From a virus: DNA of 42,208 nt. The DNA lies in IMG/VR virus record IMGVR_UViG_3300047560_001490, positions 1 to 42,208 of that record; one strand, 5' to 3'. Below the pieces are notes generated by a model. The model was not told where the DNA came from and searched no databases. It saw only the letters and a list, made by a program, of their open reading frames with translations. How positions within the stretch are numbered: the stretch's first letter is position 1; each line of letters begins with the position of its first letter. Positions 11,462 to 39,869 of the stretch are shown in pieces. The position numbers were made by a program, and so were the translations under genes.

Positions 11462-11469
11462 TATTTATC
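11462..11469 (-). promoter_or_regulatory. Putative T4-like late promoter (GATAAATA)
   Basis: Minus-strand octamer GATAAATA about 31 bases upstream of the fibre gene start at 11431, in a 64-base gap between genes. It matches seven of eight bases of the T4 late consensus and is identical to the octamers upstream of gp25 (28154) and of the gene starting at 33782. Confidence 0.55.
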
Positions 11470-15200: not shown

Positions 15201-18200
15201 CCGGCATTTAACATGATAACATTTTTAATGCCGCCATTTGAATCAACACCTGTTACTACAAATTCTGTTGGTACAACAATTCCGCCCGGAGCATTTCCTA
15301 CAACTTTTAATTTTTCGCCCGGGCTATATCCTTTACCTCGTTCGATTATCTTTATCGATGTAGCATAAGTTGGTATAGTATAATCTTCTCCATAAACAGC
15401 TAATGATTTGTCTTTCCAAATCTTAGTATCAACTAAGTTTTGTGGAACTCTTGATAATCTAAATAAAGTTCTATGCCCGTTACCATAAAATTGATCATAT
15501 ATCGGAGGCAAGCCGCCTTCTAACATTACTTCTTGTGCATCATTTACTGCTGCATCATCGGGAGAGAATCCTGCAGGCATGTCCCAACCTGCCTCAAATG
15601 GTCCTCCTGAATAAATTATTCCCTTGTAGTCAGTTCCGCTAATTAAGTCTGGGCTGAATGCAGGCGGCATATATTGTGTTGGTGCATAATCTCTCATAAT
15701 TCTATCAGCAGCACCAAATGTTTGATGATAGATAGCACCACCGTATCCAGTACCAATACCGACAGTTCTATTATACTTTCCGAATATTATATCTCCGGAA
15801 ATTGCTGTAATTGTAACATCATTTGATGCAAACGACTGTACCATTGTAGATCTTGCAATAACATTACCAACAGTTACAGTTTCTCCTGCAATAAAGATAT
15901 TTGTAATATTTTCTGCCGTTGTAAATATAACCACGTCACCGCGGCTTTCGACATTAACAACAGATACAAAACTATTATATTGATGGAATATGTTACCGCT
16001 TATACCGTTAGCTATACCAATGTTACTAGTGTAATCTACAGTAACAAGGTTACCAGATGTCTCAAGCACTATTGCATTTGACGTTGTGAATGATGTAAAC
16101 GGAGTTGTATTCGAAACTAGTGTAACATTACCAATAGTTACTTTTTCACCTACTCTAAAGGTATTCTGTTCGTTATTTAAATCTACTGAGAATACAACGG
16201 TATTACCCGAACTCTTTGCATTAGTAATTGATAATGATTTACTGTACTGATGATAAATTTCACCCTTTGTTCCAAAATTAGTATCAAGGTTACGATTATA
16301 CTTAGTAACTATAACATTGTCACTTGCACTTGCAACAACAGCATCAGATGTATTAAAAATTGTGACCTGGTTTGTTAAAGATTGTACGTTTGTTACATAA
16401 ATCTTTTCGCCTACTCTAAATGTACTTACTAATTTACTAGGTTTTATAGTAAATGAAACTGTTGACCCGTTTGCAGATGCGTTAACAACGGTTGCAACTT
16501 GAGGCATACTTGCAACTCTATCAAATACCAATTGCGTTTTTAATCTGCGAATAAGATTAGGATTGGTTTTATAGTTATTAAACCATGGGCTGTAAGTTGA
16601 ACTGCTGATCATTATGTTTTGATCAGTTATATTAAGTTCACTTAATACTCTGTAAGAATTGTCTTCAGTTTCTAGATAAACAGGTTTATCAAAGTCAGTT
16701 GATCCTTTAACACTTACATTGTCAACAGCAGTTCTACTACTTACGAATTCTCTTATTTTAGTTCTATAAGGTTTTGCTTCGTTTAAATAATCTAAAAGCA
16801 GATCAACTGTATTTGGTTTATATAGTTCCGAAGTTGACAATGGTTCCATTGACCCGTTAATAGATATGAAACTAGTCTTGAATACCCAATCAACATAATT
16901 GTGTTCATTGAACACAAAATTAACCATTGCAAAGAAAAGTTCGTTTAATTCAGTTGATCCCGAGCCGTTATATATACCCTTAACAACCCCGTCGAATATT
17001 AAACCTATTTCCATAGTTGGGTTGTAATCAAACGGAACTTTAGTATCAAACCCTATTAAATCAAATCCTGATTGATTTTGAGTTGTGTTCCATAAATTTT
17101 CTGTAATTTGGATAGTACCGTCTTGTAATCCAACTAATATTGATCCAGTGGTTTCTAGACCAAGAAATAATGCCCATCTGCCGTCAAAGTCACGAACTTT
17201 AACTACTACACCAGCTGTAATTATTGCGTCTTTTTCTTTAACCGTATCAACTGTATATGTCGGTATGGTATTTGAATCATATCCGTTACTATACCAATCA
17301 ACATATTTCCAATAGTTATTAACATTGTATGCTTGTTTTCTATAAAGAACAAAGTCATTACTTGCTGCATCCCATTGCCAAATAGTCCACATATTATTAT
17401 TAACGGCTGTTGGCATTACAAAAACTCGTTCGCCGTCAATCGCACTTTGTTTTATAATTGACATTTCACTCATGTCATTTATTTTGTATTCATAATTACC
17501 ATAAGCACTTGGTATTGGTTCGCTTTGTGTAAAGTACAAACTCCAAGTAGATTTAGAACTATCTAATACAAGAGGATCTGATGCGTCAGCTAGTTGAGTA
17601 TTAACTCTGTTAGCCCAAATACTAAGAGCTTCTAATCTATCTGCAAACCAAGACTGTCTTGGACGAATTAAATTTCCATATTTTAGTAATTCGTTTAGTT
17701 GAGGATCTGGTACTTGGTTACCCATTGCATCAAATCCTGTTAAGCTATCTCTTAGTTTGTTCCAATATTCTTGATCTATGTAACTATTAGGATCGTCTTT
17801 TCTAATAAGTGTCCATTCTTTATAATCATTTGCATCATTTGGTTTAGTTGTATAATTAACCTGCATAACGATATCTGTATCAGTTAAGAACTCTCCAATA
17901 TTTGCTACAATTAATGTGCGTTCGCTAACTGCGGCAAACCAAGGAATAGCATTACTTCCTGGATTTTTAATAATTCTTGCAATTTCATTAGTAGAAAGAT
18001 TTCTATTTTCTGCAAGCGGCGGCATATCGCTGCGACCTACCCAGAAATAATACCATGTACGTGCTATACCATTTGAATCATATTCTACTTTTTGTGTCCA
18101 GGCTGGATTTGATGAGTTTCTAACAAAGCCAGATGCAATATACGGAATACCATACTTGGATAGATTTACACCTGTTATTGTATAATTTGTCCAGTCTGCC

Positions 18201-21200
18201 GGTGGGATAGAACTTTTAACCCATTCATATATTTCTATATCTGTACCAGGTGCAAGTTTAGCCCAATTTTTAACTCTATAATCTATAGGTCCTGTTTCAT
18301 AATCAACAAATCTTGTTGTACCGAGGTCCCACCATACTTCACCAACATGCGGTTCGCTCCAGCACTCAGCCTCATTCAAACTGTAAACACTTGTATCCCC
18401 GCTGTTATATTGTGCGGGATCATAAACAGTTTTATAGGTGATTTCTTTATCGGCAATTCCGGGTATCATACCCTTGCCTGGATCATAATATTCTAAAACC
18501 GTAGCATCGGCAAATGTTAATTTGTTATATAATCTACTTGATAAAATTAAATTTGCATCAACCTTAGGCTCGGCATTTCTATAAATTTCCCAAGTACCTA
18601 TGTTCCATCTATAAACAGTCCATTCACCTTCTGCTTCGCCGTTTGTTACATAAACAAGGTCGCCTTGGTGCCAACCTCCTAATAGATCATAAGAAAGTAA
18701 CTCATTCTTATCAAAGAATTTTTTACTTTTAAGAACTCTTACAACACCTTCAAAATCTTCAATAAAGGTACTAATCGGAATACTAATAGTTACATCTGTA
18801 ACAGCTTCAACTATAAATGTTGAATTAAGGCTATTATTATTTTTAAAACCTGTTATTACAATCAAGTCGTCAACCATTATTCCGTGGTTATCGTTGAAAA
18901 TAATTTCTGTAATATTTTCGCTTCCATGAGGAAGTGTGCGACTTACAGTGCTTGCAGGACTAACAACTTTATACACATCCCAAGATGCATTAACTGTTGT
19001 GAATTGCCAAATAGTATCACCTGTTGTTAAAGTCTTACCATTTACCGCAAGGTTTGCATTCAAGTTATAAAGTTCAGTTTGATTGATAACTGTATATGTT
19101 GTTTCACCTAAGTGAACAAATCCACTAGTTGGCAAATCGCCATATAAAGAATTATCTACATTTGCTCTTAGTGGGAATAGTTTACCTTCGTAATTTTCCG
19201 GAGGAACTACGATTCCAGGATCTCTAACAGCAATTTCAATTATGCCATCTCTCGGTTGAGTACTATCATAGTTACTAAACACATCAATACGTTGCGGATT
19301 ATTAACATATTCTACTTGTGGTATAATAAAATCTATATTTGTATTAAGTGCAACAGCACCATATCTAGCTTTTCTAAATGCATATTCTTCGTAGTAGTTT
19401 ACAGTTTGACCAGTTGGTAAAATACTAGTGTTACGGAGTATACCATCAAGAGATTTACGAGAACCTTTTTGTCTTATGAAGCCTTGGAAGAATTCAAATT
19501 GAGTTGTATCATCTAATAGTAGATTTTCTAAATATTCTCTCTTTTGATAGCTAATAGTATGCTTGGCTAATTGTGATAAATCAGTTCTTGTAACCGCATG
19601 ATTTATAGAGGAATTTTCTGTTAATTTACCAGTATTATTATCTATCTTCACTATATTTTTAGGTTGATCTATGTTATAGAGATTTTTGAAATCGGCACTA
19701 GTCTTTTCAAAATTCTCAATCATCTTCCATTGATTTGTTATAGGATCTTGATATAAGAAATACCCAGGTGCATCAAGTCTACCTGACCAATTGTTAGTTC
19801 TATAGCCGTAAACTTTAAGACGCGGTTGATATACATTTAAAAGTGGATCATATATTAAATCATTAAACTGTGTTACGTTACTAACCAACATAACATGTTC
19901 AACGGTAGTAACATATACTCTTAATCCAAAGATAGTTTGCCCATTAGTAGAATTAATAGTAAGTTCGTCATTAAATCTTAAAATTTCTAAATTCTGCGCT
20001 TCTATTGGTTGACCTGATTTATCTAGAACTGGGTATGTCCCACCACTAGTTCCATTAACACATTGTACAGTGCCAAATTCCTTTTTAAACTTAATTAAAT
20101 CTGCACCCGGACTTAATGCAATAAAGTTTCCGTTTGTCCAATTACCTTGACTCCAGTAAACGAAATCTCTAGCACTTTGTCGCCAGTTAACAACTTTGCC
20201 ACTTTCGTCGTTAACGATTTCAAATTTCCACCCTTCGCTTTCTAACCAGCGACCATAGCTTACAATAAAATCATAAACATCTTGTCTATTATCAAAAATA
20301 GTTCCATATGGAACAGTATTCAATCCTGCGCCGTTTTTGTAATCTACAACAGTAGTATTACCTATTACGTTACTCGACTTGGGCCCAGTTACAATACTTG
20401 GGATAACAGTAAATGACGGGTTGATTCCGTCATATCCATATACAGCATAACCATTGCTTTGTTTAACAATGATAACACCACTATAAAAATAGGTACCTAA
20501 ACTTGTTGAACGATATAGATATGTTTGTACATTTTCAGATGGCACTAATTGACTAGTATATCCTAACTGACCAAAGCTGTCGGCCATTACTCTTAAACTA
20601 TTATCAGTGCCTACAAATCCGCCAAATTTATGAGCTAGACTGCTATATGAGCCTCTTATCACATAACCGATATTTTTTGTAACACTTAGATTCTGATTGA
20701 TCAAGTATTCGCTTATCCAGTGTTGAATTCCCCAACTACCAAAGAAACTTAGGGTTGACTCGTTTGGAATTGAATTTGTTATTTTCAAACTTGTTGGTAC
20801 TTCTCTATGAATATAAAATTCAGAATTACCTCTTCTATTATTTGTATTTTTATAAAGCCATTGCTGAGAATCACCCTCGCCTACTTGTTCAGTACGTAGC
20901 GGATCCCAAGTTTGTTCGATAAATCTTGCAGGCTTCATTAGATAACTTGTTAATGCTGTAACAAATCCGTGTTCTAAACTATTGATCCAAACATCTTCAA
21001 CTGGTCCACCGTCTCCAAATTTCCATTCTGCTTGTGCATTGTTTAATGTAGGGAGAATGGCAATTACTCCTGCTAGATTAGGAGGTAAGATCAAACCCTG
21101 ATCGTCAACAGGTATACAATCCATTAACCCAGGTCTAGCCCAGGCTGAATGCACCCCGGCTCTAATTCCATTGCGTATTAATCCTGCTGTTAGATCCTCC

Positions 21201-24200
21201 CAAAGAGTTGTATTACCTCTTGTATAGGGTGCAGGACCATACTCGCTTTCCCACCAAACGGGTTTTTGACTAAATCCAAGCATCTCCCATGGGTGAGTAT
21301 GCGGACGATCTGTATCATAGAACCATCTGTAAATAGCTTTCCAATTTCCTGGTATTGGTTCGTTATCTTTATCTGTACATGAGTTGTAGTTCCAAGAAAA
21401 CTCGTTGTTCTCTTGAAAAGTTGCATTAGCAGAATAATCAAGTTGTGAAGTAATGATCCACTTATCAAAACTTGGTCTTAGAATATTTAAGTATTCTTCT
21501 CTACTATAATTCTCTCCTACACTGTCAGCAAAGTTTAATTGGTTTCTCCATTTACCTGGTTTATAAATTCGTTGATCAAATGCAGGAGCGGAATCAATGT
21601 CTTTATATTCTGCCGGGATTGCATTGTATAAGTTAATTTCTAATTGTAACCATGCTGCGGCAACAGGATGTGATAAATGATTTGGATTAGATGTCTTATC
21701 TTTATTACTTGAAATTGTGCCTAACTGTTCACCATGCAGGTCTTCTAATATTATATTCGCACCATCGTGTGTCTGCAAAGTTAATTTAGGAGGGTAATAA
21801 TCGCTATCTAAATAAACCTCTGGTGCAAAAACTGGAGTTATACCTAGTTTTGCAGCAGTTGGAGGAATGAATGTAGGATTTTGTGTTGATGTAAAATCCT
21901 CAGTTTGTTCATACCCACTGTATGCCCATGCACTTGTTTTACTCTTACCTAAATTGATTTGTTGTAGAGCTGTATCAATCCATCCTTGCGGTGTTACGTT
22001 TTTATCAAAGCCTTGTGCATTATATAAATTAAACAACGCTCTGGTAAATCTACTATAGAATCTTGTATATTCTCTTTGTGCCCATTGTATTGCAAGGCTT
22101 ACGTCTGTTAAACTTGTATTACCTAGTGCACCGGTATTGATATTCGAACTATTCAACATCATTAATTTAAGCATAGGTGATCTGTGCTGAAGAATGTGTA
22201 CACCAAGACCTAATACTTTTGCACTATCACGCCATCCTGTTGCGCCGGCACCGTTAGTAGTTTCTTTATATTGATTAGAAATTAGACTACCAAAATGTTT
22301 AATGGTTTGATCAAATGTTAACGTATTAATTTCTTCATTATTTGGATTAGCAACAAGGTTAACTGGTTGTAGATAATAACCGTTTGATGCAACAGGTGTG
22401 TCTTTACTCCAACTATAAATCTCAATTCTTGCAGCAGTTGATTCGTCTACTGCGGTTGTTAACGTTACAGTTCTGCCATAGACGGTATAATCAACTCCAT
22501 TAACCAGAAGTTTCGAACTATGATTATGAATTTGATAAACCATTATGTTGGGTAAAAATCCTAGAACGTCTTCCGCTGGAGACTGATCTATTAGAAACGT
22601 CGCCGTTGATTCAGTTATATCAAAAGAATTTAAAATATATTGACGGGAACCGCCTCTACATTTGTGCCAACCATTACTTATATTACCATTACTATACCAT
22701 AGATACCCTGTTATATCTACTTCCTGATTATTTTCTATATAAGTGTAACTACTTGTAACAAGAGAGTTATCAAATATAAAATCACCAAACTGATCTCGTT
22801 TAGCTTTGATTTGCAAGTAAGTATCTACTACATAATTACTGTCAGTTTTATAGGTAAAAATTGTATTACCTGAGAAGTTGCTACCAGGATAAACAGCAGG
22901 ATCTATTAAGTTGTTTCCGTATCTATCATATCCAGCAAACAGTGCAGGAACATACTTTTGACGTGTTTGAGCAGCTACCCAAGTAGTACCATTAAACCAC
23001 CAAGTCTTTTTACCGTTGTTTGTACCAAACATTGCATATGTACAATCACCGTATGTAGGTGCACCGGTTGAATTCTGTCCTTTGGTTACTAATGTTAGTG
23101 TTACAACACCGTACTCCTCAATTCCGCCTACCTGATAAACTCTATTATTAACTGAGGAATCTTTATCTGCTGTAAAAAGAATAGTCATTCCATCTATAAG
23201 ATTTACACCGTCAATAATTATATTACTACCATACAACACAACATCGCGGCCGCCTATATTAACAGTCCTTCCGTTAACTGTTGTATTACCTACTGAAACT
23301 TGTCCGATTTGCATACCAGCAATTGTCCCAAATACATCAGTGGTTGTTGTATCAACTATATCAATATCAGGCAGTCCATATGTACCGTGATTAAACAGGT
23401 GCATGTTAGAATCAAATTCTATAATTGGACGTTTAGCTTTGACATCTTCTTTGTCGAAAAGATTAAGACCTGATGTTAATAACACATCCTTATGAAACCA
23501 ACGATTATTAACACTCCATCTATTGTAATTCTGTGCAATACGCCCGAGAGTCATATAATCAGGGATATTGTTGATGTCGTCTCCGTCCCAGCCTCTAACA
23601 TCCCATCGTGGAACATCCCATCCAGGTGCAGGTGACATATAATCAGGTTCGATTTTAATACCTGTTCCGACACCTTCGACAATGAAAATAATACCTTCTA
23701 AGCTATGATCAGCATCATTAGAAACTTGTATTCTCATTCCGCTCGATAATTTTAATTCACCTGTAATAGTTTGATTGTCTGTAACTCTGTAATAGGACCC
23801 AACATATGTGTACTCAGTTTTACCTATAGCATCATTGCGTAAATCAGTATAATTTAATAGCTGAATGTTACCGGGTCCTTGCGGTAACCAATAATACTCA
23901 TAAAAGTTAATAAACTTATCAGGGTCAATCGGCGGTAACCAACTATAGTATTCTGTTTCTAGTAATCTGCTATGACTCTTTATATTTGATCCTTGGAATG
24001 CAAGAAGATTTATAGTATCGTCATAGAACATGATATTCGTAACTGCTGAACTAGTAGGGTCTGTGCTTACAGCCGTTACTGGTAGCTGATAATTTGTTCT
24101 ATTCTGAGTCTTTTCTGTTATATAAAAATCTTTATTTTTATCGTAGTAAGCAGGCTTACTACCTACGTATCCACTTATGAATTCTACATTCTCTGGTTGC

Positions 24201-24370
24201 AACATATGATCTATTGTTGCATTGAAGAACTTTTCTAATGTATCAGTTTGATAAACAGCTGGTAACAAGTGTATAGCAGAACGTTTGCTGTTAACTGTGT
24301 CAGTTTGAGCAAATATGTTAGATGCCATAGGTTTAATAGGTTGAGGTCCATTACTTGTTAAATTAGCCAT
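12245..24370 (-). CDS. Giant virion structural protein of the baseplate region (4041 aa)
   Basis: One uninterrupted frame of 4041 codons directly after gp6, overlapping it by 8 bases. In T4 the genes after gp6 are 7, 8, 9 and 10, so this protein probably does part of the work of the baseplate wedge/periphery; that is inference from position. The N-terminal 150 residues (SAIHLLPAVYQTDTLEKFFNA around residue 31) resemble the large structural protein next to gp6 in cyanophages, by memory. Most of the chain is Asn/Thr/Tyr/Gly-rich beta structure with aromatic patches. Residues about 2620-2885 are three tandem repeats (each ending in YHQY, FHQY or YHQT). Around residues 3010-3310 there are GYSPGE, NYKPGD and GYKTGE motifs. 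No enzyme motif or membrane segment was recognised. Confidence 0.85.
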   Translation of the reverse strand: MANLTSNGPQPIKPMASNIFAQTDTVNSKRSAIHLLPAVYQTDTLEKFFNATIDHMLQPENVEFISGYVGSKPAYYDKNKDFYITEKTQNRTNYQLPVTAVSTDPTSSAVTNIMFYDDTINLLAFQGSNIKSHSRLLETEYYSWLPPIDPDKFINFYEYYWLPQGPGNIQLLNYTDLRNDAIGKTEYTYVGSYYRVTDNQTITGELKLSSGMRIQVSNDADHSLEGIIFIVEGVGTGIKIEPDYMSPAPGWDVPRWDVRGWDGDDINNIPDYMTLGRIAQNYNRWSVNNRWFHKDVLLTSGLNLFDKEDVKAKRPIIEFDSNMHLFNHGTYGLPDIDIVDTTTTDVFGTIAGMQIGQVSVGNTTVNGRTVNIGGRDVVLYGSNIIIDGVNLIDGMTILFTADKDSSVNNRVYQVGGIEEYGVVTLTLVTKGQNSTGAPTYGDCTYAMFGTNNGKKTWWFNGTTWVAAQTRQKYVPALFAGYDRYGNNLIDPAVYPGSNFSGNTIFTYKTDSNYVVDTYLQIKAKRDQFGDFIFDNSLVTSSYTYIENNQEVDITGYLWYSNGNISNGWHKCRGGSRQYILNSFDITESTATFLIDQSPAEDVLGFLPNIMVYQIHNHSSKLLVNGVDYTVYGRTVTLTTAVDESTAARIEIYSWSKDTPVASNGYYLQPVNLVANPNNEEINTLTFDQTIKHFGSLISNQYKETTNGAGATGWRDSAKVLGLGVHILQHRSPMLKLMMLNSSNINTGALGNTSLTDVSLAIQWAQREYTRFYSRFTRALFNLYNAQGFDKNVTPQGWIDTALQQINLGKSKTSAWAYSGYEQTEDFTSTQNPTFIPPTAAKLGITPVFAPEVYLDSDYYPPKLTLQTHDGANIILEDLHGEQLGTISSNKDKTSNPNHLSHPVAAAWLQLEINLYNAIPAEYKDIDSAPAFDQRIYKPGKWRNQLNFADSVGENYSREEYLNILRPSFDKWIITSQLDYSANATFQENNEFSWNYNSCTDKDNEPIPGNWKAIYRWFYDTDRPHTHPWEMLGFSQKPVWWESEYGPAPYTRGNTTLWEDLTAGLIRNGIRAGVHSAWARPGLMDCIPVDDQGLILPPNLAGVIAILPTLNNAQAEWKFGDGGPVEDVWINSLEHGFVTALTSYLMKPARFIEQTWDPLRTEQVGEGDSQQWLYKNTNNRRGNSEFYIHREVPTSLKITNSIPNESTLSFFGSWGIQHWISEYLINQNLSVTKNIGYVIRGSYSSLAHKFGGFVGTDNSLRVMADSFGQLGYTSQLVPSENVQTYLYRSTSLGTYFYSGVIIVKQSNGYAVYGYDGINPSFTVIPSIVTGPKSSNVIGNTTVVDYKNGAGLNTVPYGTIFDNRQDVYDFIVSYGRWLESEGWKFEIVNDESGKVVNWRQSARDFVYWSQGNWTNGNFIALSPGADLIKFKKEFGTVQCVNGTSGGTYPVLDKSGQPIEAQNLEILRFNDELTINSTNGQTIFGLRVYVTTVEHVMLVSNVTQFNDLIYDPLLNVYQPRLKVYGYRTNNWSGRLDAPGYFLYQDPITNQWKMIENFEKTSADFKNLYNIDQPKNIVKIDNNTGKLTENSSINHAVTRTDLSQLAKHTISYQKREYLENLLLDDTTQFEFFQGFIRQKGSRKSLDGILRNTSILPTGQTVNYYEEYAFRKARYGAVALNTNIDFIIPQVEYVNNPQRIDVFSNYDSTQPRDGIIEIAVRDPGIVVPPENYEGKLFPLRANVDNSLYGDLPTSGFVHLGETTYTVINQTELYNLNANLAVNGKTLTTGDTIWQFTTVNASWDVYKVVSPASTVSRTLPHGSENITEIIFNDNHGIMVDDLIVITGFKNNNSLNSTFIVEAVTDVTISIPISTFIEDFEGVVRVLKSKKFFDKNELLSYDLLGGWHQGDLVYVTNGEAEGEWTVYRWNIGTWEIYRNAEPKVDANLILSSRLYNKLTFADATVLEYYDPGKGMIPGIADKEITYKTVYDPAQYNSGDTSVYSLNEAECWSEPHVGEVWWDLGTTRFVDYETGPIDYRVKNWAKLAPGTDIEIYEWVKSSIPPADWTNYTITGVNLSKYGIPYIASGFVRNSSNPAWTQKVEYDSNGIARTWYYFWVGRSDMPPLAENRNLSTNEIARIIKNPGSNAIPWFAAVSERTLIVANIGEFLTDTDIVMQVNYTTKPNDANDYKEWTLIRKDDPNSYIDQEYWNKLRDSLTGFDAMGNQVPDPQLNELLKYGNLIRPRQSWFADRLEALSIWANRVNTQLADASDPLVLDSSKSTWSLYFTQSEPIPSAYGNYEYKINDMSEMSIIKQSAIDGERVFVMPTAVNNNMWTIWQWDAASNDFVLYRKQAYNVNNYWKYVDWYSNGYDSNTIPTYTVDTVKEKDAIITAGVVVKVRDFDGRWALFLGLETTGSILVGLQDGTIQITENLWNTTQNQSGFDLIGFDTKVPFDYNPTMEIGLIFDGVVKGIYNGSGSTELNELFFAMVNFVFNEHNYVDWVFKTSFISINGSMEPLSTSELYKPNTVDLLLDYLNEAKPYRTKIREFVSSRTAVDNVSVKGSTDFDKPVYLETEDNSYRVLSELNITDQNIMISSSTYSPWFNNYKTNPNLIRRLKTQLVFDRVASMPQVATVVNASANGSTVSFTIKPSKLVSTFRVGEKIYVTNVQSLTNQVTIFNTSDAVVASASDNVIVTKYNRNLDTNFGTKGEIYHQYSKSLSITNAKSSGNTVVFSVDLNNEQNTFRVGEKVTIGNVTLVSNTTPFTSFTTSNAIVLETSGNLVTVDYTSNIGIANGISGNIFHQYNSFVSVVNVESRGDVVIFTTAENITNIFIAGETVTVGNVIARSTMVQSFASNDVTITAISGDIIFGKYNRTVGIGTGYGGAIYHQTFGAADRIMRDYAPTQYMPPAFSPDLISGTDYKGIIYSGGPFEAGWDMPAGFSPDDAAVNDAQEVMLEGGLPPIYDQFYGNGHRTLFRLSRVPQNLVDTKIWKDKSLAVYGEDYTIPTYATSIKIIERGKGYSPGEKLKVVGNAPGGIVVPTEFVVTGVDSNGGIKNVIMLNAGSFEVIQDGAYSIEYIDSYYVGSGKNAKVGMIWGGSTLKFTTPPTSSDKPNIWVLYAGTTFEPAPAGEYDIITDGSDFINPTVEADHAEELLTNRIRDAVRIDTYSNYVGGMPIVWQTSYITEGIKDHYSMGVRPQNDSGVEAYLDGVLLRYGPTKDFVVNFETGELVFVYPPDPGKRLTIIAYGDGGSGSTISAVYPVSRGENYKPGDFITLEGGEPTQFNDAGGKYRARVQVETVTAGNIHIANGGTGYKTGEILQLVWDLAQPGEVQTPLLVKTTNVTIKGSIVSVEIYNAGSYKTIPDVATWKSSNSNGSGLNMSPVWGVNTAKIDRPGLYTVKPTVPFVQYASSTSGGTGATFNAYYTSIINQETFVATGKTGTFTLRKSGTSFFNFMVTVNGVFATVLGYSSTSVSIATPPLGSYVVVTVFNTPQFSKILNEEFTYTGFSYIMERPVGNTVPDYSTVVVTADGLPLSPPPMKTYIGDGYTRQFDFPDVPTDPETYLKVYIDGAHIGPPGYDVFDGTVTLYFTLNEGATLTIVNMDPTQGQFYSIIGKEIFMNNVDIGARINVLSFTQDLSYRFVLQEFDGNPNGEYILEDNPTSESTITVFKNNQLQRMLWDYAIARRTIEGFDIFGYDAQPFDSGPYRYVILFNQPHDPADNITIRYMRGAPERPGIAIRQFIDSSLYRQSYAIDFKARTRLLSEVLINSSSIEVEDYTKLTQPTLTVPGSVWIDNEKIDFLEVQPAPTRDHPNRAFLTNIVRGAGGTSTGIETTFNIEYFDGNGTTDRYATMSGYSPNGITVYVNNKFQAQGKMYYYAVEGMDVQIGLVDALQSTTQLTVYDTYPNSEPLTLGIDYYFMSNNSIRLINNYETITIITIKIAPLPGVKTNCFLTSIEGDVSLILNIDAGVYIIFDSNSIPPVGYKNIKFVEVIGSTTSICHFSNVIVQDSGTNMLIPGGYNWEPSPMGLQYNNSPQVKFLLEHPGARD
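15716..16500 (-). repeat. Three tandem protein-coding repeats inside the giant structural gene
   Basis: Within codons about 2620-2885 of the 4041-residue protein, a unit of roughly 85-90 residues occurs three times. Each copy has a segment like SGNTVVFSV, then FRVGEKV or FIAGETV, then a V(T/G)NV segment, and finishes with a Gly-rich turn and YHQY, FHQY or YHQT. The copies are diverged at the protein level, so this is an old duplication, not a recent DNA repeat. Limits are approximate. Confidence 0.7.
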
Positions 24371-28153: not shown

Positions 28154-28161
28154 TATTTATC
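28154..28161 (-). promoter_or_regulatory. Putative T4-like late promoter (GATAAATA)
   Basis: Minus-strand GATAAATA in the 57-base gap between gp5 and gp25, about 27 bases upstream of the chosen gp25 start. Seven of eight bases match the T4 late consensus. It would drive gp25, gp6 and the giant gene. Confidence 0.55.
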
Positions 28162-33805: not shown

Positions 33806-33813
33806 TATTTATC
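33806..33813 (-). promoter_or_regulatory. Putative T4-like late promoter (GATAAATA) for the virion module
   Basis: Minus-strand GATAAATA in the divergent region between the virion module and gp55. It lies about 24 bases upstream of the start at 33782, the right distance for a T4-type late promoter, and would drive the first tail genes. Confidence 0.6.
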
Positions 33814-33871: not shown

Positions 33872-33913
33872 TTCAGTCATTTGCTTCTGTTTTGTTTTTA
33901 ATTAAGGAATATG

Positions 33914-34885
33914 ATGAGTAATGCACCAACGACTAAAATAAAATATCTTACAAACAAGGATTTATTAGAAGAGATACATCGCAGTAAAAAGACTTATTGT
34001 GAATTTATTGCAGAAGAATTTGGTAATTATGATTTTATAGTTACCGACCTGGCAATTGCAACTCCTGAACGTATTCAACAGGCTAGAGAGAAAAGATACA
34101 GCGATACTTTTAGCAAGATGAAAAAGGAAGCAGTATCTAGAGGAGTTAAGAATCCTCAAATACAATTAGATATAGAAACAATTACCCCCGAAAGTATTGT
34201 TATTAGACTAATGACATTTGATCATATTCCAATTAATGAAGAAAAACTACACAAAGCAAAAACAGAAGCAGAACGCCATATTAAATGTAACTTTCCGCCC
34301 TTTCAACATTACATATATAAAGACAACGAATTTATATGTGTAGGTAAGAGTCACTGGGTTGGCGGATTAGAAAACGGTCACTTTAGTAATACACATGGTA
34401 CAATTACAAATAGACTAGCACTTATGTTTATGAAGTTGGTAGAAAGATATAGTCACAGAGGCAATTGGCGAGGTTATACATATAACGACGAGATGCGTAG
34501 CCAAGCATTACTACAGTTAAGTCAAATGGGCTTACAATTTGATGAAAGCAAGAGTGATACACCAAATCCGTTCGCATACTTTACAGCCGCAGTTAACAAC
34601 TCCTTTACAAGAATCCTAAATTTAGAAAAACGTTCCCAAAATATTAGAGATGATTTGCTTATTATGCACGGTGCTATGCCAAGTTATACTAGGCAGACTG
34701 AGCAGGATATAGCCAAGACTGGCGGTGCCGCTGCACCTGCAAGAGGTAGATTTGGTAGAGCTATTAAAAAGGTCGTTCCTGTTGTCGAAGCCGTAGCTGC
34801 TGAGCCAGCTGTTGTTGAAGTAGAAACTACTAAAACAAAAGTTACTAAAACAAAAACTGCTACTAAATCAAAAGCCAAAAAGTAG
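33914..34885 (+). CDS. 55: Late transcription sigma factor gp55, with insertion and basic tail
   Basis: Homologue of T4 gp55, the sigma factor that lets host RNA polymerase recognise TATAAATA-type late promoters. Matching segments are the N-terminal TNKDLLEEIHRSKK (T4: NNKELLQAI) and, at about residues 190-245, GYTYNDEMRSQALLQLSQMG, NPFAYFTAAVNNSFTRIL and a following KR-rich piece. Between them lies an extra segment of roughly 110 residues (from about 45 to 160) with no counterpart in the 185-residue T4 protein. The C-terminus ends in a Lys/Thr-rich tail (KTKVTKTKTATKSKAKK), and the hydrophobic clamp-binding end of T4 gp55 (SLDFLYE) is not visible. An ATG at 33911 is only two bases from the Shine-Dalgarno AAGGA, so I start at 33914. 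Confidence 0.85.
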   Translation: MSNAPTTKIKYLTNKDLLEEIHRSKKTYCEFIAEEFGNYDFIVTDLAIATPERIQQAREKRYSDTFSKMKKEAVSRGVKNPQIQLDIETITPESIVIRLMTFDHIPINEEKLHKAKTEAERHIKCNFPPFQHYIYKDNEFICVGKSHWVGGLENGHFSNTHGTITNRLALMFMKLVERYSHRGNWRGYTYNDEMRSQALLQLSQMGLQFDESKSDTPNPFAYFTAAVNNSFTRILNLEKRSQNIRDDLLIMHGAMPSYTRQTEQDIAKTGGAAAPARGRFGRAIKKVVPVVEAVAAEPAVVEVETTKTKVTKTKTATKSKAKK

Positions 34886-34947: not shown

Positions 34948-35979
34948 ATGGCTCAAAAGAAACCAGACTTTAGTAAATGTGTTGCATTCACTGACATTCA
35001 CCTTGGTCTTAAAAATAATAGCCGTGAGCATAATGCTCTGTGCGAATCATTTATTGATTGGATGGCAGAAGAAGCACAAAAGTTCGGTGCTAAAACCTGT
35101 ATATTCTTAGGTGATTGGCACCATATCCGTTCTGCTATTAATATTTCTACATTAAACTACAGTGTTAGTTGTTTACGTAAGCTCAACAATTATTTTGATG
35201 ACACTATATTCATTATTGGTAACCACGACTTGTTCTATCGTGACAAGTATGAAATTCATAGTATTCCTTACATTAATGAATTTCCAAACATTCATCCTAT
35301 TGATAAACTAACAACCATAGGCGATGTTTGTTTTGCCCCTTGGTTAGTTGAGGATGAATGGAAGAAGGTGCAAAAGATCAAAGCACCATATATGTTTGGA
35401 CATTTTGAATTACCAAAGTTTAAAATGAACGCAATGGTTGAAATGCCAGATCACGGACTTCTAAACCGTGAACACTTCGTTCATCAGAAACAAGTATTTT
35501 CTGGACACTTCCACAAGCGTCAGAGTTTTGAAGATCGTATTTGGTATATTGGTAACTGTTTCCCGCACAACTATTCCGATGCTTGGGATGATGAGCGCGG
35601 CATTATGTTATGGGAACCTGGAAAAGAACCAGCGTTTAAGACATTTCCAGATGCTCCAAAATATAGAACGCTGACTTTAAGTCAGGTATTAACAGATCCA
35701 CTGACGTTTATCGATAGCAAAACGTATGCCAAAATCAACATTGACATTGATATAAATTATGAGGAGATTAACTTCCTCAAAGAAACTTTTGAAAACGATA
35801 TCGGTGCCAAAGAAGTGGCAATGCAGGTGGCAAAAATATCTGATATTGACGTTGACTCTGGTGCTGCTATAAACTTTGAGAGTGTTGATACAATTGTGAT
35901 TAGTCATTTGAAAAGTATTGAAAGTAACACTATCGATACTCAAAAATTAATTTCAATTTATCAGTCACTGACTATATAG
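34948..35979 (+). CDS. 47: gp47, Mre11-like recombination exonuclease subunit
   Basis: Catalytic subunit of the gp46/gp47 complex that resects DNA ends for recombination-dependent replication and host DNA breakdown. The 343-residue protein (T4 gp47: 339) has the metallophosphoesterase motifs in order: Asp16 and His18 (TDIHLG), Asp56 (LGDWHH), Asn92-His93 (IGNHD), His152 (GHFELP), and His187/His189 (GHFHKR). All metal ligands are present, so it should be active. It begins after AAAGGATATAACC, 62 bases downstream of gp55. In T4 its partner gene 46 follows almost at once; here pmoC and a cluster of tiny ORFs lie between them. Confidence 0.95.
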   Translation: MAQKKPDFSKCVAFTDIHLGLKNNSREHNALCESFIDWMAEEAQKFGAKTCIFLGDWHHIRSAINISTLNYSVSCLRKLNNYFDDTIFIIGNHDLFYRDKYEIHSIPYINEFPNIHPIDKLTTIGDVCFAPWLVEDEWKKVQKIKAPYMFGHFELPKFKMNAMVEMPDHGLLNREHFVHQKQVFSGHFHKRQSFEDRIWYIGNCFPHNYSDAWDDERGIMLWEPGKEPAFKTFPDAPKYRTLTLSQVLTDPLTFIDSKTYAKINIDIDINYEEINFLKETFENDIGAKEVAMQVAKISDIDVDSGAAINFESVDTIVISHLKSIESNTIDTQKLISIYQSLTI

Positions 35980-36030
35980 AAATATTTTGAACGAGCTATT
36001 GCGTTTAACTATAGAGTTATGTATATTTCG

Positions 36031-36038
36031 TATAAATA
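36031..36038 (+). promoter_or_regulatory. Putative late promoter TATAAATA for pmoC
   Basis: Exact T4 late consensus in the 170-base gap between gp47 and pmoC, about 112 bases upstream of the pmoC ATG. The octamer is followed by TTT, as is the copy at 37075. The leader contains a small inverted repeat (TTAAC/GTTAA, about 36048-36063). Because the phage encodes gp55, pmoC is probably a late gene. Confidence 0.65.
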
Positions 36039-36149
36039 TTTCTGCTGTTAACAACGGCGTTAATATGGAGGCGTTTGTAACTTAAAAATAGTCTTTAAAT
36101 TGTTGAGTTGTGTTAAATTAAATCAATCTAAAAATTTAGGAGATTAGAG

Positions 36150-36923
36150 ATGAGTTCAACAAGTAAGGCGGTTTCCGGCGCAGTTTCCGGTACAGATGCA
36201 AGTGTTGTCGATCTACGTGGTATGTGGATCGGTCTTGGACTATTAAATGTTTTCTATCTAATTGTACGTATCTATGAACAGGTCTTTGGTTGGCGTGCCG
36301 GCCTAGATTCGTTCGCACCCGAGTTCCAGACATATTGGATGTCAATCCTATGGACGGAAATCCCACTAGAACTAGTATCAGGTATGGCCCTCGCTGGTTA
36401 TCTTTGGAAGACCCGCGATCGGGACCTAGCAAATCTTGCTCCTCGTGAGGAAGTACGTCGTATCGTTGTTCTCGTTCAGTGGCTTGTAGTTTATGCTGCT
36501 GCAATTTATTGGGGCGCATCATTCTTCACTGAACAGGACGGTACATGGCACATGACAGTTATTCGTGATACAGACTTTACTCCAAGTCACATCATTGAGT
36601 TCTACATGAGCTATCCAATCTACAGCGTTATTGCTGTTGGTGCTTTCTTCTATGCTCGTACACGTATCCCTTACTTTGCTCAGGGTTACTCACTAGCATT
36701 TTTGATCGTTGCTATTGGACCATTTATGATCATTCCAAACGTTGGTCTAAATGAATGGGGTCACACATTCTGGTTCATGGAAGAGCTCTTTGTTGCTCCG
36801 CTACATTGGGGCTTTGTGTTCTTTGGTTGGATGGCACTAGGTGTATTTGGTGTTGTTCTACAGATTCTAGGACGTATCCACGCCCTAGTCGGTAAGGAAG
36901 GCGTTGCTCTTCTTACTGAATAA
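36150..36923 (+). CDS. pmoC: Particulate methane monooxygenase subunit C (PmoC), alphaproteobacterial type
   Basis: PmoC is a membrane subunit of the copper enzyme that oxidises methane to methanol in the host's intracytoplasmic membranes. The 257-residue protein has the family length and several membrane helices (about 25-43, 104-124, 150-168, 180-197, 220-240). Metal-site residues known from Methylococcus structures are conserved: Asp130, His134 and His147 (DGTWH...PSH), and Asn201, His205 and His219 (NEWGH...LHW). LRGMWIGL, GLDSFAPEFQTYWM and NEWGHTFWFMEELF read like Methylocystis/Methylosinus PmoC, not AmoC. AGGAG lies 7 bases before the ATG. No pmoA or pmoB is present, so the product must join host PmoA and PmoB. 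Single-line hand counts give about 48-50% GC, versus about 32% in a gp46 line. Confidence 0.97.
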   Translation: MSSTSKAVSGAVSGTDASVVDLRGMWIGLGLLNVFYLIVRIYEQVFGWRAGLDSFAPEFQTYWMSILWTEIPLELVSGMALAGYLWKTRDRDLANLAPREEVRRIVVLVQWLVVYAAAIYWGASFFTEQDGTWHMTVIRDTDFTPSHIIEFYMSYPIYSVIAVGAFFYARTRIPYFAQGYSLAFLIVAIGPFMIIPNVGLNEWGHTFWFMEELFVAPLHWGFVFFGWMALGVFGVVLQILGRIHALVGKEGVALLTE

Positions 36924-36956
36924 TAGACTAATAGTTTAAGTTACATAACGCCTCAC

Positions 36957-36984
36957 AAACCGCTCACCTTAAGTGGGCGGTTTT
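36957..36984 (+). terminator. Rho-independent terminator after pmoC
   Basis: Stem AAACCGCTCAC (36957-36967) with GTGGGCGGTTT (36973-36983), one G-T wobble, a 5-base loop and a T tract (TTTTC). It lies 33 bases after the pmoC stop and so closes pmoC as its own transcript. Confidence 0.9.
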
Positions 36985-37074
36985 CTTATATGTGCGCTAT
37001 CGCACACCATGTGTGCCAACGCACATGCCAAACATAACTGACTAGTTAACTCCGGGTTTTTGCGTTATATTAGC

Positions 37075-37082
37075 TATAAATA
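37075..37082 (+). promoter_or_regulatory. Putative late promoter TATAAATA for the tiny-ORF cluster
   Basis: Exact T4 late consensus, followed by TTTTT, 23 bases before the ATG at 37106. It shares the 11-mer TATAAATATTT with the copy upstream of pmoC. A transcript from here would run through four tiny ORFs to the terminator at 37394. Confidence 0.65.
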
Positions 37083-37105
37083 TTTTTACAAAAGGGAGAC
37101 GCAAA

Positions 37106-37213
37106 ATGTTTAACAAGGTCGCAATATTTTCAGTAACAATGTTTATGATTTTTGCTGTATCAGCATATGCACAAAGTTCATTTGCTCAGGCATTTTGCGG
37201 TAACTGTTTCTAA
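37106..37213 (+). CDS. Tiny exported-peptide candidate, 35 aa, ends FAQAFCGNCF
   Basis: A short ORF with a strong Shine-Dalgarno (GGGAG at 37094-37098, 7-base spacing) and a late-type promoter 23 bases upstream. The peptide begins MFNKVAIFSVTMFM, a short basic start followed by a hydrophobic stretch, then AVSAYAQ, the AxA pattern of a signal peptidase I site. Cleavage there leaves a 13-residue peptide ending FAQAFCGNCF; cleavage at AQA would leave only FCGNCF. Export is inference. The two Cys in FCGNC could form a disulfide or bind a metal. It is followed directly by a second peptide of the same design. I know of no matching family. It could be non-functional, but its signals are unusually clean. 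Confidence 0.6.
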   Translation: MFNKVAIFSVTMFMIFAVSAYAQSSFAQAFCGNCF

Positions 37214-37224
37214 GGAGAGATGTA

Positions 37225-37323
37225 ATGAGATATACTCTTACTATAATGTCTTTTCTAGCTCTTTTCTCTATGGCAGGCATTCTGATTACACTGCCTGCTC
37301 ATGCTCATGCTTTTTACTGTTAA
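37225..37323 (+). CDS. Tiny exported-peptide candidate, 32 aa, ends AHAHAFYC
   Basis: Second ORF of the cluster, starting 11 bases after the previous stop with Shine-Dalgarno TAAGGAG (GGAG at 37214-37217, 7-base spacing) overlapping that stop codon. The peptide starts MRYTLTIMSFLALF, has a long hydrophobic core, and ends LPAHAHAFYC. Two signal peptidase-like AxA sites (AHA, AHA) precede a remnant HAFYC or FYC. It shares the A-x-A-F-[C/Y] end with the neighbouring peptide, so the two may be a related pair. His and Cys near the end could bind copper; that is speculation. No known family is recognised. Confidence 0.6.
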   Translation: MRYTLTIMSFLALFSMAGILITLPAHAHAFYC

Positions 37324-37334
37324 GGAGTACGTTA

Positions 37335-37361
37335 ATGGACGAACAACTATGGGGATTTTAA
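37335..37361 (+). CDS. Octapeptide ORF MDEQLWGF
   Basis: An eight-codon ORF with Shine-Dalgarno TAAGGAG (GGAG at 37324-37327, 7-base spacing), which again overlaps the stop of the ORF before it. Its product MDEQLWGF shares an acidic start and a W-x-G-F or W-G-F end with the next ORF. It might be a signalling peptide, a leader peptide or a chance ORF; the repeated Shine-Dalgarno spacing is the main support. Too short for any family comparison. Confidence 0.4.
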   Translation: MDEQLWGF

Positions 37362-37362
37362 A

Positions 37363-37386
37363 ATGAACGAATGGGATGGATTTTAA
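37363..37386 (+). CDS. Heptapeptide ORF MNEWDGF
   Basis: Seven codons starting one base after the previous stop (37359-37361), with GGGGA at 37351-37355 at the same 7-base spacing. The product MNEWDGF resembles MDEQLWGF in its acidic start and aromatic-Gly-Phe end. Its stop is 8 bases before the cluster's terminator hairpin, so it is the last element of the transcript. Confidence 0.35.
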   Translation: MNEWDGF

Positions 37387-37393
37387 AAACAAC

Positions 37394-37418
37394 AAAGCCG
37401 CTATATGCGGCTTTTATT
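37394..37418 (+). terminator. Rho-independent terminator closing the tiny-ORF cluster
   Basis: Stem AAAGCCGC (37394-37401) with GCGGCTTT (37407-37414), 5-base loop TATAT, followed by TATTTT. It lies just after the heptapeptide ORF, making 37075-37418 a self-contained unit with its own promoter and terminator. Confidence 0.9.
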
Positions 37419-37433
37419 TTGACTGCTATCTTG

Positions 37434-37442
37434 TGCTATACT
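37434..37442 (+). promoter_or_regulatory. Possible extended -10 promoter for gp46
   Basis: TGCTATACT (TG at 37434-37435, TATACT at 37437-37442) is an extended -10 element located after the terminator and about 41 bases before the gp46 ATG at 37484. No good -35 is seen, which is normal for extended -10 promoters. It would give gp46 its own transcript after the inserted cassettes cut it off from gp47. Confidence 0.45.
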
Positions 37443-37483
37443 CGTTAGATACTTTATATTTGTATATCAATTGGAAATATGTC

Positions 37484-39262
37484 ATGCTCGCAATAAAATC
37501 CGTTACAATGAAAAACTTTATGAGTGTTGGTGCTGTTACACAATCTGTCGACTTAACTAAAAACGGCGTAACACTTGTATTTGGTGAAAACTTAGATCTA
37601 GGCGGCAATGGTTCTCGTAACGGCGTAGGCAAGAGTACAATCCTACAGGCTATTAGTTATGGACTATTTGGTGTTCCATTAACCAACATTAAAAAAGATA
37701 ATCTTGTAAACAAGATCAATCAAAAGAATATGAGTGTTAGCATTGAATTTGAAAACAATGGACACAAGTATCGCATTGAACGTGGCCGTAAGCCGCAATT
37801 CTTTCGTTACATTGTAGACGATGAGAATGTTAATAGTCAGGATACTGACGAAGCACAGGGCGAAAGCAAAGATACACAACACGAAATTGATCGTATATTA
37901 GGTATGAGTCATACAATGTTTAAGTACATTGTAGGATTGAATACATACACAGAACCATTTCTATCACTAGGTGTTAGTAAGCAACGAGAACTTATTGAAG
38001 AACTACTATGTATCACACAGTTAAGTCAAAAGGCTGAGAAGCTAAAAGAACTTATTAAGACTACTAAAAACGAAATTGAAAAAGAAGAACTGCGACTTCG
38101 TACAGTTAAACTTTCTAATGAACGTATTCAAAATACTATAGAAGATGTTAATCGCAAGGCTGATCAGTGGATTACGGATCATCAACAAGAATTAGAAACA
38201 CTAGATATGGCTATTGCTAATCTAGCTAATCTTGATATTGAAAATGAATTAGAGCAACATAAACAAGTTGAAACTAAAAAAGAACTTGAACAAGTGATTA
38301 ACCAGTTAAAGAGGGATATATCATTAAAGACTCGTCATGCCACTCAACTTGAAACACAGTTAAATGGATTGGTTGCACAGTATAGCACAGTTCTAAACAA
38401 AGAATGTCCAATGTGCGGACAAGGTCTACATGATCACGCCCACGATTCAATCGTAGAAGATCTCGAAGGTAAAATTGCTAACCTAGATGGACAAATTTCT
38501 AGCGAACGCCAAGAGATTGCAAACTTACAAGCAGAAGTTGATACCATTTCTCCTGTATTAGAAGCTATGGGTAAACCAGAAACATTCTATCCAACTCTAC
38601 GTGAGGCACTAGCACATAAGTCTACAATTGATCAACTTATCAAAGACTTAGATAAAGAGAAAACTAGAGAAAATCCTTATGCAGAACAAGCAGTTAGCTT
38701 ACAAGAAACTATGCAACCTATTGATTACGATATACTGAACACAAGCGTAAAAAATAGAGAGCATCAAGAGTTTTTATTGAAGTTACTCACTAGCAAGGAT
38801 AGTTTCATCCGTAAGAAGGTTATCGATCAAAACCTTGCATATCTTAACAGCAGACTAAGCGAGTATATTGATAAACTTGGATTACCGCATCTTGTTAAGT
38901 TTATGAATGATCTAACAACTGAAATTACTATTCTTGGACAGGATCTAGACTTTGATAATCTTAGCCGCGGAGAACGTACAAGATTGATTCTTGGGTTAAG
39001 CTGGGCGTTTAGAGATATCTTTGAGAACACTAATCATGCCGTTAACTTGATATTTGTCGATGAGCTGCTAGATAGTGGACTCGACAGTGCTGGTCTTGAA
39101 GGATCTGTTGATCTTCTTAAGAAGATGGATCGTGAACGCAACAAGAATGTATTTGTTATTAGTCACAGAGAAGAGTTGATTAACCGTGTAACCAATATCC
39201 TAACAGTAATTAAGGAAAACGGATTTACTAACTTCTCATATGATTATGAAACAGTGACGTAA
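37484..39262 (+). CDS. 46: gp46, Rad50-like recombination ATPase subunit
   Basis: ATPase partner of gp47 in the recombination nuclease. The 592-residue protein has the SMC/Rad50 layout: N-terminal strand MKNFMSVG, Walker A GNGSRNGVGKST (Lys50), a long coiled coil interrupted by a zinc hook CPMC near residue 308, the ABC signature LSRGER (about 493-498), and Walker B LIFVDE (Asp526, Glu527), followed by FVISHREE. The frame is open further upstream to 37376, but that would run through the terminator and tiny ORF; the ATG at 37484 (MLAIKSV) aligns with T4 gp46 and has an extended -10 promoter ahead. The zinc hook is kept. It ends convergently with the nuclease gene, overlapping by 19 bases. Confidence 0.95.
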   Translation: MLAIKSVTMKNFMSVGAVTQSVDLTKNGVTLVFGENLDLGGNGSRNGVGKSTILQAISYGLFGVPLTNIKKDNLVNKINQKNMSVSIEFENNGHKYRIERGRKPQFFRYIVDDENVNSQDTDEAQGESKDTQHEIDRILGMSHTMFKYIVGLNTYTEPFLSLGVSKQRELIEELLCITQLSQKAEKLKELIKTTKNEIEKEELRLRTVKLSNERIQNTIEDVNRKADQWITDHQQELETLDMAIANLANLDIENELEQHKQVETKKELEQVINQLKRDISLKTRHATQLETQLNGLVAQYSTVLNKECPMCGQGLHDHAHDSIVEDLEGKIANLDGQISSERQEIANLQAEVDTISPVLEAMGKPETFYPTLREALAHKSTIDQLIKDLDKEKTRENPYAEQAVSLQETMQPIDYDILNTSVKNREHQEFLLKLLTSKDSFIRKKVIDQNLAYLNSRLSEYIDKLGLPHLVKFMNDLTTEITILGQDLDFDNLSRGERTRLILGLSWAFRDIFENTNHAVNLIFVDELLDSGLDSAGLEGSVDLLKKMDRERNKNVFVISHREELINRVTNILTVIKENGFTNFSYDYETVT

Positions 39263-39780
39263 TCTTCTGCACAACAGTTAGCGACTTGATTAGCATTTAG
39301 CTTCCAGAAGTTATCATATTCACAGATGACCCAGTCACCGTACTTCTTGCTTGTGTAAACAATGAATGGTACGCCGTTATATTGAAATATCGGACGTTCA
39401 TCTCTAACTGCTACAAATCGTAATTGACGAGTTATCTTACATATTAAGATGCTGAAGTCGCCATCGTCTGCCGCAGTTACCAATTGATCTAACCATGTTT
39501 CAAGTTGTTTAACTTCTCCTAGAAATAGTTGATGCCAGGGGAACTTACCATAACTCTTACATTCTGCGTTCATACGAGGAAAGCTCTGTCCGGGAATAAT
39601 ATCACCTTTGAAGCTTCTTATTTGTCCTTCGTGCAGGTATTGCTTTCTAACAGTATTAGCACCGCCAGTATATGCACCAGACCCGGGAGCTCTGATAAAA
39701 GTTTCACCGTAGAGCTTGGTCAAATCTGCTGCTACTTCTCTTTCCCAACTATTACCTTTATTCTTACTAGGACTTGGCAT
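39244..39780 (-). CDS. PD-(D/E)XK-like nuclease or resolvase (178 aa)
   Basis: A likely DNA endonuclease. The N-terminus (NKGNSWEREVAADLTKLYG) resembles the start of Holliday-junction-resolvase-like and RecB-like restriction folds: KGNxxEREVA helix with Glu13/Glu15, then Asp60 (FKGDII) and Glu73-Cys-Lys75 (NAECKSYG), giving the D...ExK pattern. The final part has two Cys (NCCAEDY) that may be structural. The frame continues upstream to a TTG at 39804, but the ATG at 39780 with TTAGGTGATT ahead is the better start. It is convergent with gp46, whose recombination role it may complement. Substrate is not determined. It could be an accessory resolvase; a T4 endonuclease VII homologue is less likely. 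Confidence 0.75.
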   Translation of the reverse strand: MPSPSKNKGNSWEREVAADLTKLYGETFIRAPGSGAYTGGANTVRKQYLHEGQIRSFKGDIIPGQSFPRMNAECKSYGKFPWHQLFLGEVKQLETWLDQLVTAADDGDFSILICKITRQLRFVAVRDERPIFQYNGVPFIVYTSKKYGDWVICEYDNFWKLNANQVANCCAEDYVTVS

Positions 39781-39869
39781 ATAATCACCTAACTGTGTTG
39801 ACAACCATTTTTAGATCAATTAAACATAATACAACAACTACAAACCAAAATACAATATAGGGTAATAAC

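Follow-up and report, generated by a model that had tools for sequence, protein, structure and literature searches.

The virus fragment analysed here is IMG/VR record IMGVR_UViG_3300047560_001490, positions 1-42,208, referred to as the window. An intact pmoC gene, encoding subunit C of the particulate methane monooxygenase (pMMO), was found in it between the recombination genes gp47 and gp46, together with a cluster of four tiny open reading frames (ORFs). The window most likely comes from a T4-like phage of the jumbo type, and the host is most likely a Methylocystis-type methanotroph. We consider it probable that this apparently stand-alone, Methylocystis-type pmoC forms a self-contained late unit at the 47/46 junction and sustains the methane oxidation of the host. 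Comparisons within the window cover this 42-kb fragment, and genes outside the record are not visible in them.

Insertion at the 47/46 junction

The genes run on the plus strand in the order gp47, pmoC, terminator, four tiny ORFs, terminator, and gp46. Re-reading of the ORFs and profile matches reproduced the order and strand that an earlier note on this DNA had given for positions 34948-39262. gp47 (34948-35979) encodes the SbcD/Mre11-like subunit of a recombination nuclease (PHROG SbcD-like, E 2e-62, and comparison with relatives), and gp46 (37484-39262) encodes the SbcC/Rad50-like subunit (PHROG SbcC-like, E 6e-106; Pfam AAA_23). The gp46 start was set at 37484 by alignment with relatives, the ORF called from 37376 being too long. 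pmoC (36150-36923; Pfam AmoC and alignment with PDB 3rfr) is followed by an intrinsic terminator (36957-36983, +) with an 11-bp stem and a T-rich tail, and another intrinsic terminator (37394-37414, +) lies 3' of the tiny ORFs; both fold far better than shuffled sequences (z -3.6 and -4.3, respectively). The late-promoter motif TATAAATA precedes pmoC (36031-36038, +; 119 bp 5' of its start) and tiny ORF 1 (37075-37082, +; 31 bp 5'), so that each cassette has a promoter motif and a well-folding terminator of its own, as had been claimed.

The 46-47 interval was compared, as the earlier note had proposed, among IMG/VR relatives of gp47 and gp46 (71 distinct pairs), and cassette-free relatives were found. 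The gap is at most 20 bp in 65 of the 71, with stop and start codons very often overlapping, an arrangement that suggests translational coupling. It is 1504 bp in the window and 1140 bp in L039 and L040, contigs from two other samples that carry pmoC and one terminator without the tiny ORFs. In the tree, the window and L039/L040 form a fully supported pair, which L081 (approximately 80% identity; gap of 0 bp) adjoins as sister. The insertion of cassettes between normally abutting genes is thus borne out by L081 and some 64 more distinct relatives, and the two cassettes are separable, L039/L040 holding the pmoC cassette alone. By parsimony, the junction would have been opened once the L081 lineage had diverged, with the tiny-ORF unit either gained in the window lineage or lost in the L039 lineage. 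The window and L039 can be aligned in the upstream late-promoter segment, the terminator, and the gp46 leader, and the counterpart of the terminator at 37394-37414 lies directly 3' of pmoC in L039. The gp46 leader (37415-37483, +), which follows the last terminator, contains a weak sigma-70-like element at a position aligned in L039; that gp46 runs from a promoter of its own, as the earlier note had proposed, is only weakly suggested by this candidate. Near-adjacency of 46 and 47, given there as normal for T4-like phages, was found to hold in the family of the window and to fail in several T4-like and rhizobial jumbo lineages, which have other genes between them.

The junction had also been suspected to be a cargo hotspot, and ftsH, homing-type ORFs, and small ORFs do occupy it in several lineages. 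Five T4-like phages with pmoC elsewhere (G001, G003, G005, G008, and G013) have ftsH between 47 and 46, as do dozens of related contigs and one 164-kb contig without pmoC. In L272-L276 and L283-L320 (e.g., L272:1211-2995), the junction ftsH is full-length, with M41 peptidase, AAA, and FtsH_ext domains. ORFs with homing-nuclease-like ends are present at the junction in L093 and L170, with no significant Pfam endonuclease match for either, and gp46 of L084 (8011-10857) carries a LAGLIDADG intein within its Walker A motif (GVGK / TTLL). Three small ORFs occupy the junction in G012, two hypothetical genes in Sinorhizobium phage Phosso, and one in Agrobacterium phage Atu_ph07. The insert of the window is not a free-standing homing endonuclease cassette, as no endonuclease gene lies between 35979 and 37484.

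Late-promoter motif upstream of pmoC

Exact TATAAATA occurs in the window at only the two sites given above, 5' of pmoC and 5' of the tiny ORFs (7.75 expected from shuffles). With any first base allowed, the core ATAAATA occurs at six sites, each followed, 24-119 bp further on, by a gene in the matching orientation; the chance that random placement would position all six in this way is about 7e-10, and the placement is as expected for T4-type late promoters. The other four sites read GATAAATA or AATAAATA and lie 5' of minus-strand genes of structural or late type. The GATAAATA at 33806-33813 (-), 31 bp 5' of a structural gene, was taken as the positive control, and further copies are at 28154-28161 (-) and 11462-11469 (-), 25 and 38 bp 5' of minus-strand gene starts, respectively. 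The window therefore contains the T4-type late promoter motif, TATAAATA or NATAAATA ahead of a late gene, and its dependence on gp55 is predicted. A sigma-70-like scan of the window gave 28 matches where 27.9 were expected by chance, with no excess over shuffles, and the promoter claim thus rests on the late-promoter motif instead.

The late motif was found within 120 bp upstream of 28 of 41 viral pmoC genes, 0 of 93 gp47 genes, and 0 of 85 gp46 genes. Exact TATAAATA was present within 200 bp in 18 of 29 alpha-type and 9 of 12 gamma-type distinct viral pmoC upstream regions (fewer than one expected from shuffles), nearly always at -65 to -119, and it was present upstream of 1 of 65 cellular pmoC genes. 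In L039, GATAAATA lies 208 bp upstream of pmoC, and the isolated relative Paride has GATAAATA 5' of its structural gene. In cyanophage S-PM2, NATAAATA has been published as the late promoter (PMC2984593). The motif at viral pmoC fits the published transcription of pmoC along with structural genes in three Lake Rotsee pmoC-phages (PMC7674155).

The proposed explanation is that pmoC was derived from a Methylocystis-type host and placed between gp47 and gp46 as a unit consisting of the late promoter TATAAATA, a leader of ~110 nt, pmoC, and a terminator, which a second late unit of tiny ORFs would adjoin in the window phage alone. gp55, whose gene is a neighbor of the unit, would drive transcription of pmoC along with the structural genes at the late stage of infection. 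The phage PmoC would take the place of, or add to, the host copy of this metal-binding membrane subunit of pMMO and would keep methane oxidation and energy supply running while host expression fails; the terminators would shield gp46 from late transcription. Several points weigh against this explanation. The host was deduced from pmoC alone, the late motif is short, and 13 of the 41 viral pmoC upstream regions lack it within 120 bp. A motif of like shape is also found 5' of gp55 in 15 of 56 loci, and the motif is thus not confined to late genes. For the window phage, late timing is read from the sequence, and the entry of PmoC into host pMMO is a prediction.

PmoC, its origin, and alternative explanations

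The Pfam AmoC match covers residues 11-249 (360 bits; cut-off 26.7; E 8e-108), and the window PmoC aligns end to end with the crystallised Methylocystis PmoC (3rfr). The metal ligands Asp130, His134, and His147 are kept in a motif, QDGTWH...FTPSH, that is identical to that of 3rfr; the metal-site residues are reported as Asp156, His160, and His173 in Methylococcus numbering (PMC7674155). The dN/dS of pmoC (about 0.06-0.12) indicates purifying selection, and a non-functional pmoC was rejected in view of the intact ORF, a dN/dS of about 0.1, and the kept ligands. The nearest cellular protein is PmoC of a Methylocystis pmoCAB operon in which pmoA follows (95% over residues 19-257). No pmoA or pmoB adjoins pmoC within the 42-kb fragment, the rest of the genome lying outside the record, and a phage backbone of gp55, 47, 46, a resolvase, and baseplate genes surrounds pmoC as in a pmoC-phage. 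We read the gene as a late-expressed auxiliary gene of Methylocystis-type origin under purifying selection. In the tree of the full pmoC DNA, the window groups with L040, L041, and L004 (98/97); the PmoC protein tree leaves its placement unresolved. Two further pmoC sequences were observed: a remnant in G044 (the contig of L334; 29621-29757), in which only the residues matching 14-46 and 237-257 are left, side by side, and ftsH is still on the contig, and a Methylosinus-like pmoC in L198, a contig assigned to an Elusimicrobia MAG (metagenome-assembled genome), probably by a binning error.

A chimera of phage and host DNA assembled at pmoC was considered, as phage scaffolds are reported to break often at pmoC owing to the similarity of host copies (PMC7674155). 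It was rejected as very improbable because the same arrangement, with diverged sequence, was found in the two further samples of L039 and L040, and because the third-position GC of pmoC is phage-like (0.37 vs 0.78 in the host). It is possible, although not the course of events that we favor, that pmoC entered the window and L039 lineages on separate occasions or was exchanged with other phages. Their identity at fourfold sites is 0.60 in pmoC and 0.33-0.51 in the flanking genes (P 0.004), and the window pmoC is as close to that of L041, located elsewhere in its genome, as to that of L039; phage-phage exchange or repeated arrival at the site could account for both, and the second cassette is found in the window only. 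However, a pairing of the window pmoC with that of L040 is not rejected (p 0.22), the alignable promoter segment, terminator, and gp46 leader speak for a shared insertion, and stronger codon constraint on pmoC could yield the same fourfold signal. A single vertical insertion of pmoC is neither shown nor rejected by these comparisons. It is quite improbable that a free-standing homing endonuclease opened the junction and that pmoC and the tiny ORFs are passengers of little importance for infection, kept by linkage or drift. In T4, homing endonucleases are known to have settled between genes expressed together, with promoters left behind for the gene that follows (PMC2988022), and the homing-nuclease-like ORFs of L093 and L170 and the intein of L084 point in the same direction. 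However, the insert of the window has no endonuclease, the ORFs of L093 and L170 lack a significant endonuclease match, and pmoC is intact, under purifying selection, and, across unrelated backbones, preceded by a late promoter of its own.

A repair cycle would refine, not oppose, the reading of pmoC as a late unit sustaining methane oxidation, and we regard it as somewhat unlikely. Host or phage FtsH would remove damaged PmoC and the phage would supply the new subunit, analogous to the repair proposed for cyanophage psbA and the D1 protein of photosystem II. One lineage would then use the junction for pmoC and another for ftsH. This is favored by the presence of ftsH at the junction in the five T4-like pmoC-phages, by its location 1.3-2.1 kb 3' of pmoC in a further pmoC-phage group (L013:1549-6112, L006, L015, L018, L025, L035, and L053), and by the presence of ftsH in L041 and L004, whose pmoC is closest to that of the window. 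ftsH also lies beside stand-alone pmoC in the Methylocystis genomes L183, L185, L191, and L202, and monocistronic pmoC with an adjoining ftsH has been described in Methylocystis (PMC3794950). However, no ftsH was seen in the window or L039, both of which are fragments; the 164-kb contig has the junction ftsH without pmoC, and the long contigs G004 and G012 have pmoC without ftsH. PmoC is a putative FtsH substrate, and the derivation of phage FtsH from pmoC-linked host copies was rejected, as the tree gives no specific grouping with them.

Tiny ORFs, pqqA, and known systems

Tiny ORF 1 (37106-37213, +; 35 aa; tail QSSFAQAFCGNCF) and tiny ORF 2 (37225-37323, +; 32 aa; tail HAFYC) have secretion-signal-like starts and read as secreted peptides with cysteine-containing tails. 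Shine-Dalgarno-like sites are good for three of the four ORFs, namely, GGGAG ahead of tiny ORF 1 and AAGGAG ahead of tiny ORFs 2 and 3 (37335-37361, +; MDEQLWGF). Tiny ORF 4 (37363-37386, +; MNEWDGF) has a weak ribosome site and an uncertain coding status, and is perhaps a copy of tiny ORF 3. The unit is known from the window contig alone. Tiny ORFs 1 and 2 had no Pfam match at E 0.1 in a search that recognises PqqA in other phages, and PqqA or another known small-peptide precursor was rejected for lack of a profile match. Three degenerate patterns for tiny-ORF relatives gave a single match in viral contigs (L257), a chance one lying out of frame in a 1150-aa ORF, and no relative of tiny ORFs 2 and 3 was found in these contigs. 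DNA similarity of the pmoC-gp46 stretch in phage records was limited to short matches of stem-loop size, and no RNA families were found. A methanobactin-like role, prompted by the Cys-rich tails, was set aside, as secretion-signal-like starts are a poor fit to the features of MbnA. The tiny ORFs are most likely a second late cargo unit with products directed to the periplasm or membrane; a pMMO accessory or lysis-related role is a guess. A different tiny secreted peptide, ending in GVVYEG(S/A)GG(R/K), is conserved directly 3' of pmoC in L001 (6789-6920), L008 (6826-6954), and L010 (3085-3222), with no family match and nothing significant in seven methanotroph genomes.

pqqA was found about 100 bp downstream of pmoC in the gamma-type pmoC-phages L055 (4312-4380), L063 (2726-2797), and L065 (6853-6924), and about 2 kb downstream in L056 (8841-8909). 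The gene, for the precursor of the methanol dehydrogenase cofactor, encodes 23-24 aa (Pfam PqqA, E 4e-11 and 3e-9) and is so small that gene callers easily miss it. Lake Baikal methylotroph phages carry pqqA and methanol dehydrogenase (PMC7678222). The ftsH and pqqA locations suggest a function in pMMO maintenance. A more extended proposal, which we consider unlikely as a whole, is that methanotroph phages carry a pMMO maintenance kit of separate late units, in which FtsH would clear the damaged subunit, PmoC would replace it, PqqA would serve the enzyme that acts next in the pathway, and tiny secreted peptides (cysteine-ending in the window phage) would aid pMMO or copper handling, with 47/46 as one docking site.

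Upstream of gp47, the window encodes the T4-type late sigma factor gp55 (33911-34885, +; PHROG sigma factor for late transcription, E 7e-82). It is uninterrupted in the window. In several relatives, gp55 is divided by inserted DNA that is up to about 1 kb long and may be an intron or intein (L039:974-2848, L082:3434-5254, L091, L097, L098, L105, and L166). The downstream neighbor of gp46 is a RusA-like resolvase gene (39244-39804, -), and a single 4041-aa ORF lies among the structural genes (12245-24370, -).

The isolated jumbo phages Paride, Atu_ph07, and Phosso share the 47/46 neighbors of the window and differ from it in lacking pmoC; Paride has the identical order of gp53, structural gene, gp55, 47, and 46, with 47 and 46 overlapping by one base. 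The freshwater-lake pmoC-phages (Chen et al. 2020, PMC7674155) likewise are large T4-like myoviruses with a methanotroph-derived pmoC and a conserved metal site, their pmoC standing alone as that of the window appears to; the window differs in the 47/46 site, the explicit late promoter, and the second, tiny-ORF unit. psbA of T4-like cyanophages (PMC2984593) is similarly a phage copy of the turnover-prone membrane subunit of a host energy enzyme, with NATAAATA late promoters; the enzyme and host are different, and D1-like turnover of PmoC is suggested by analogy only. The monocistronic pmoC of Methylocystis (PMC3794950) is comparable in standing alone, as the window pmoC appears to, and in lying, in hosts and several phages, near ftsH, whereas no ftsH lies within the 42-kb fragment. 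In mobE-type homing endonuclease insertions of T4 (PMC2988022), a co-expressed pair is also interrupted, and a promoter inside the insert or behind it serves the downstream gene; the insert of the window differs in having late promoters of its own and no endonuclease.

pmoC-phages were already known, and the main text of Chen et al. (PMC7674155) makes no mention of gp46, gp47, promoters, ftsH, or pqq; the insertion site, the promoter evidence, and the association of pmoC with ftsH and pqqA appear to be new. The late motif offers an explanation at the level of sequence for the late expression that has been reported for phage pmoC, in alpha-type and gamma-type pmoC-phages alike. With an insertion site that has empty relatives, and with phage pmoC linked to ftsH and pqqA, the role of phage PmoC can be turned into testable predictions on its timing, turnover, and partners.

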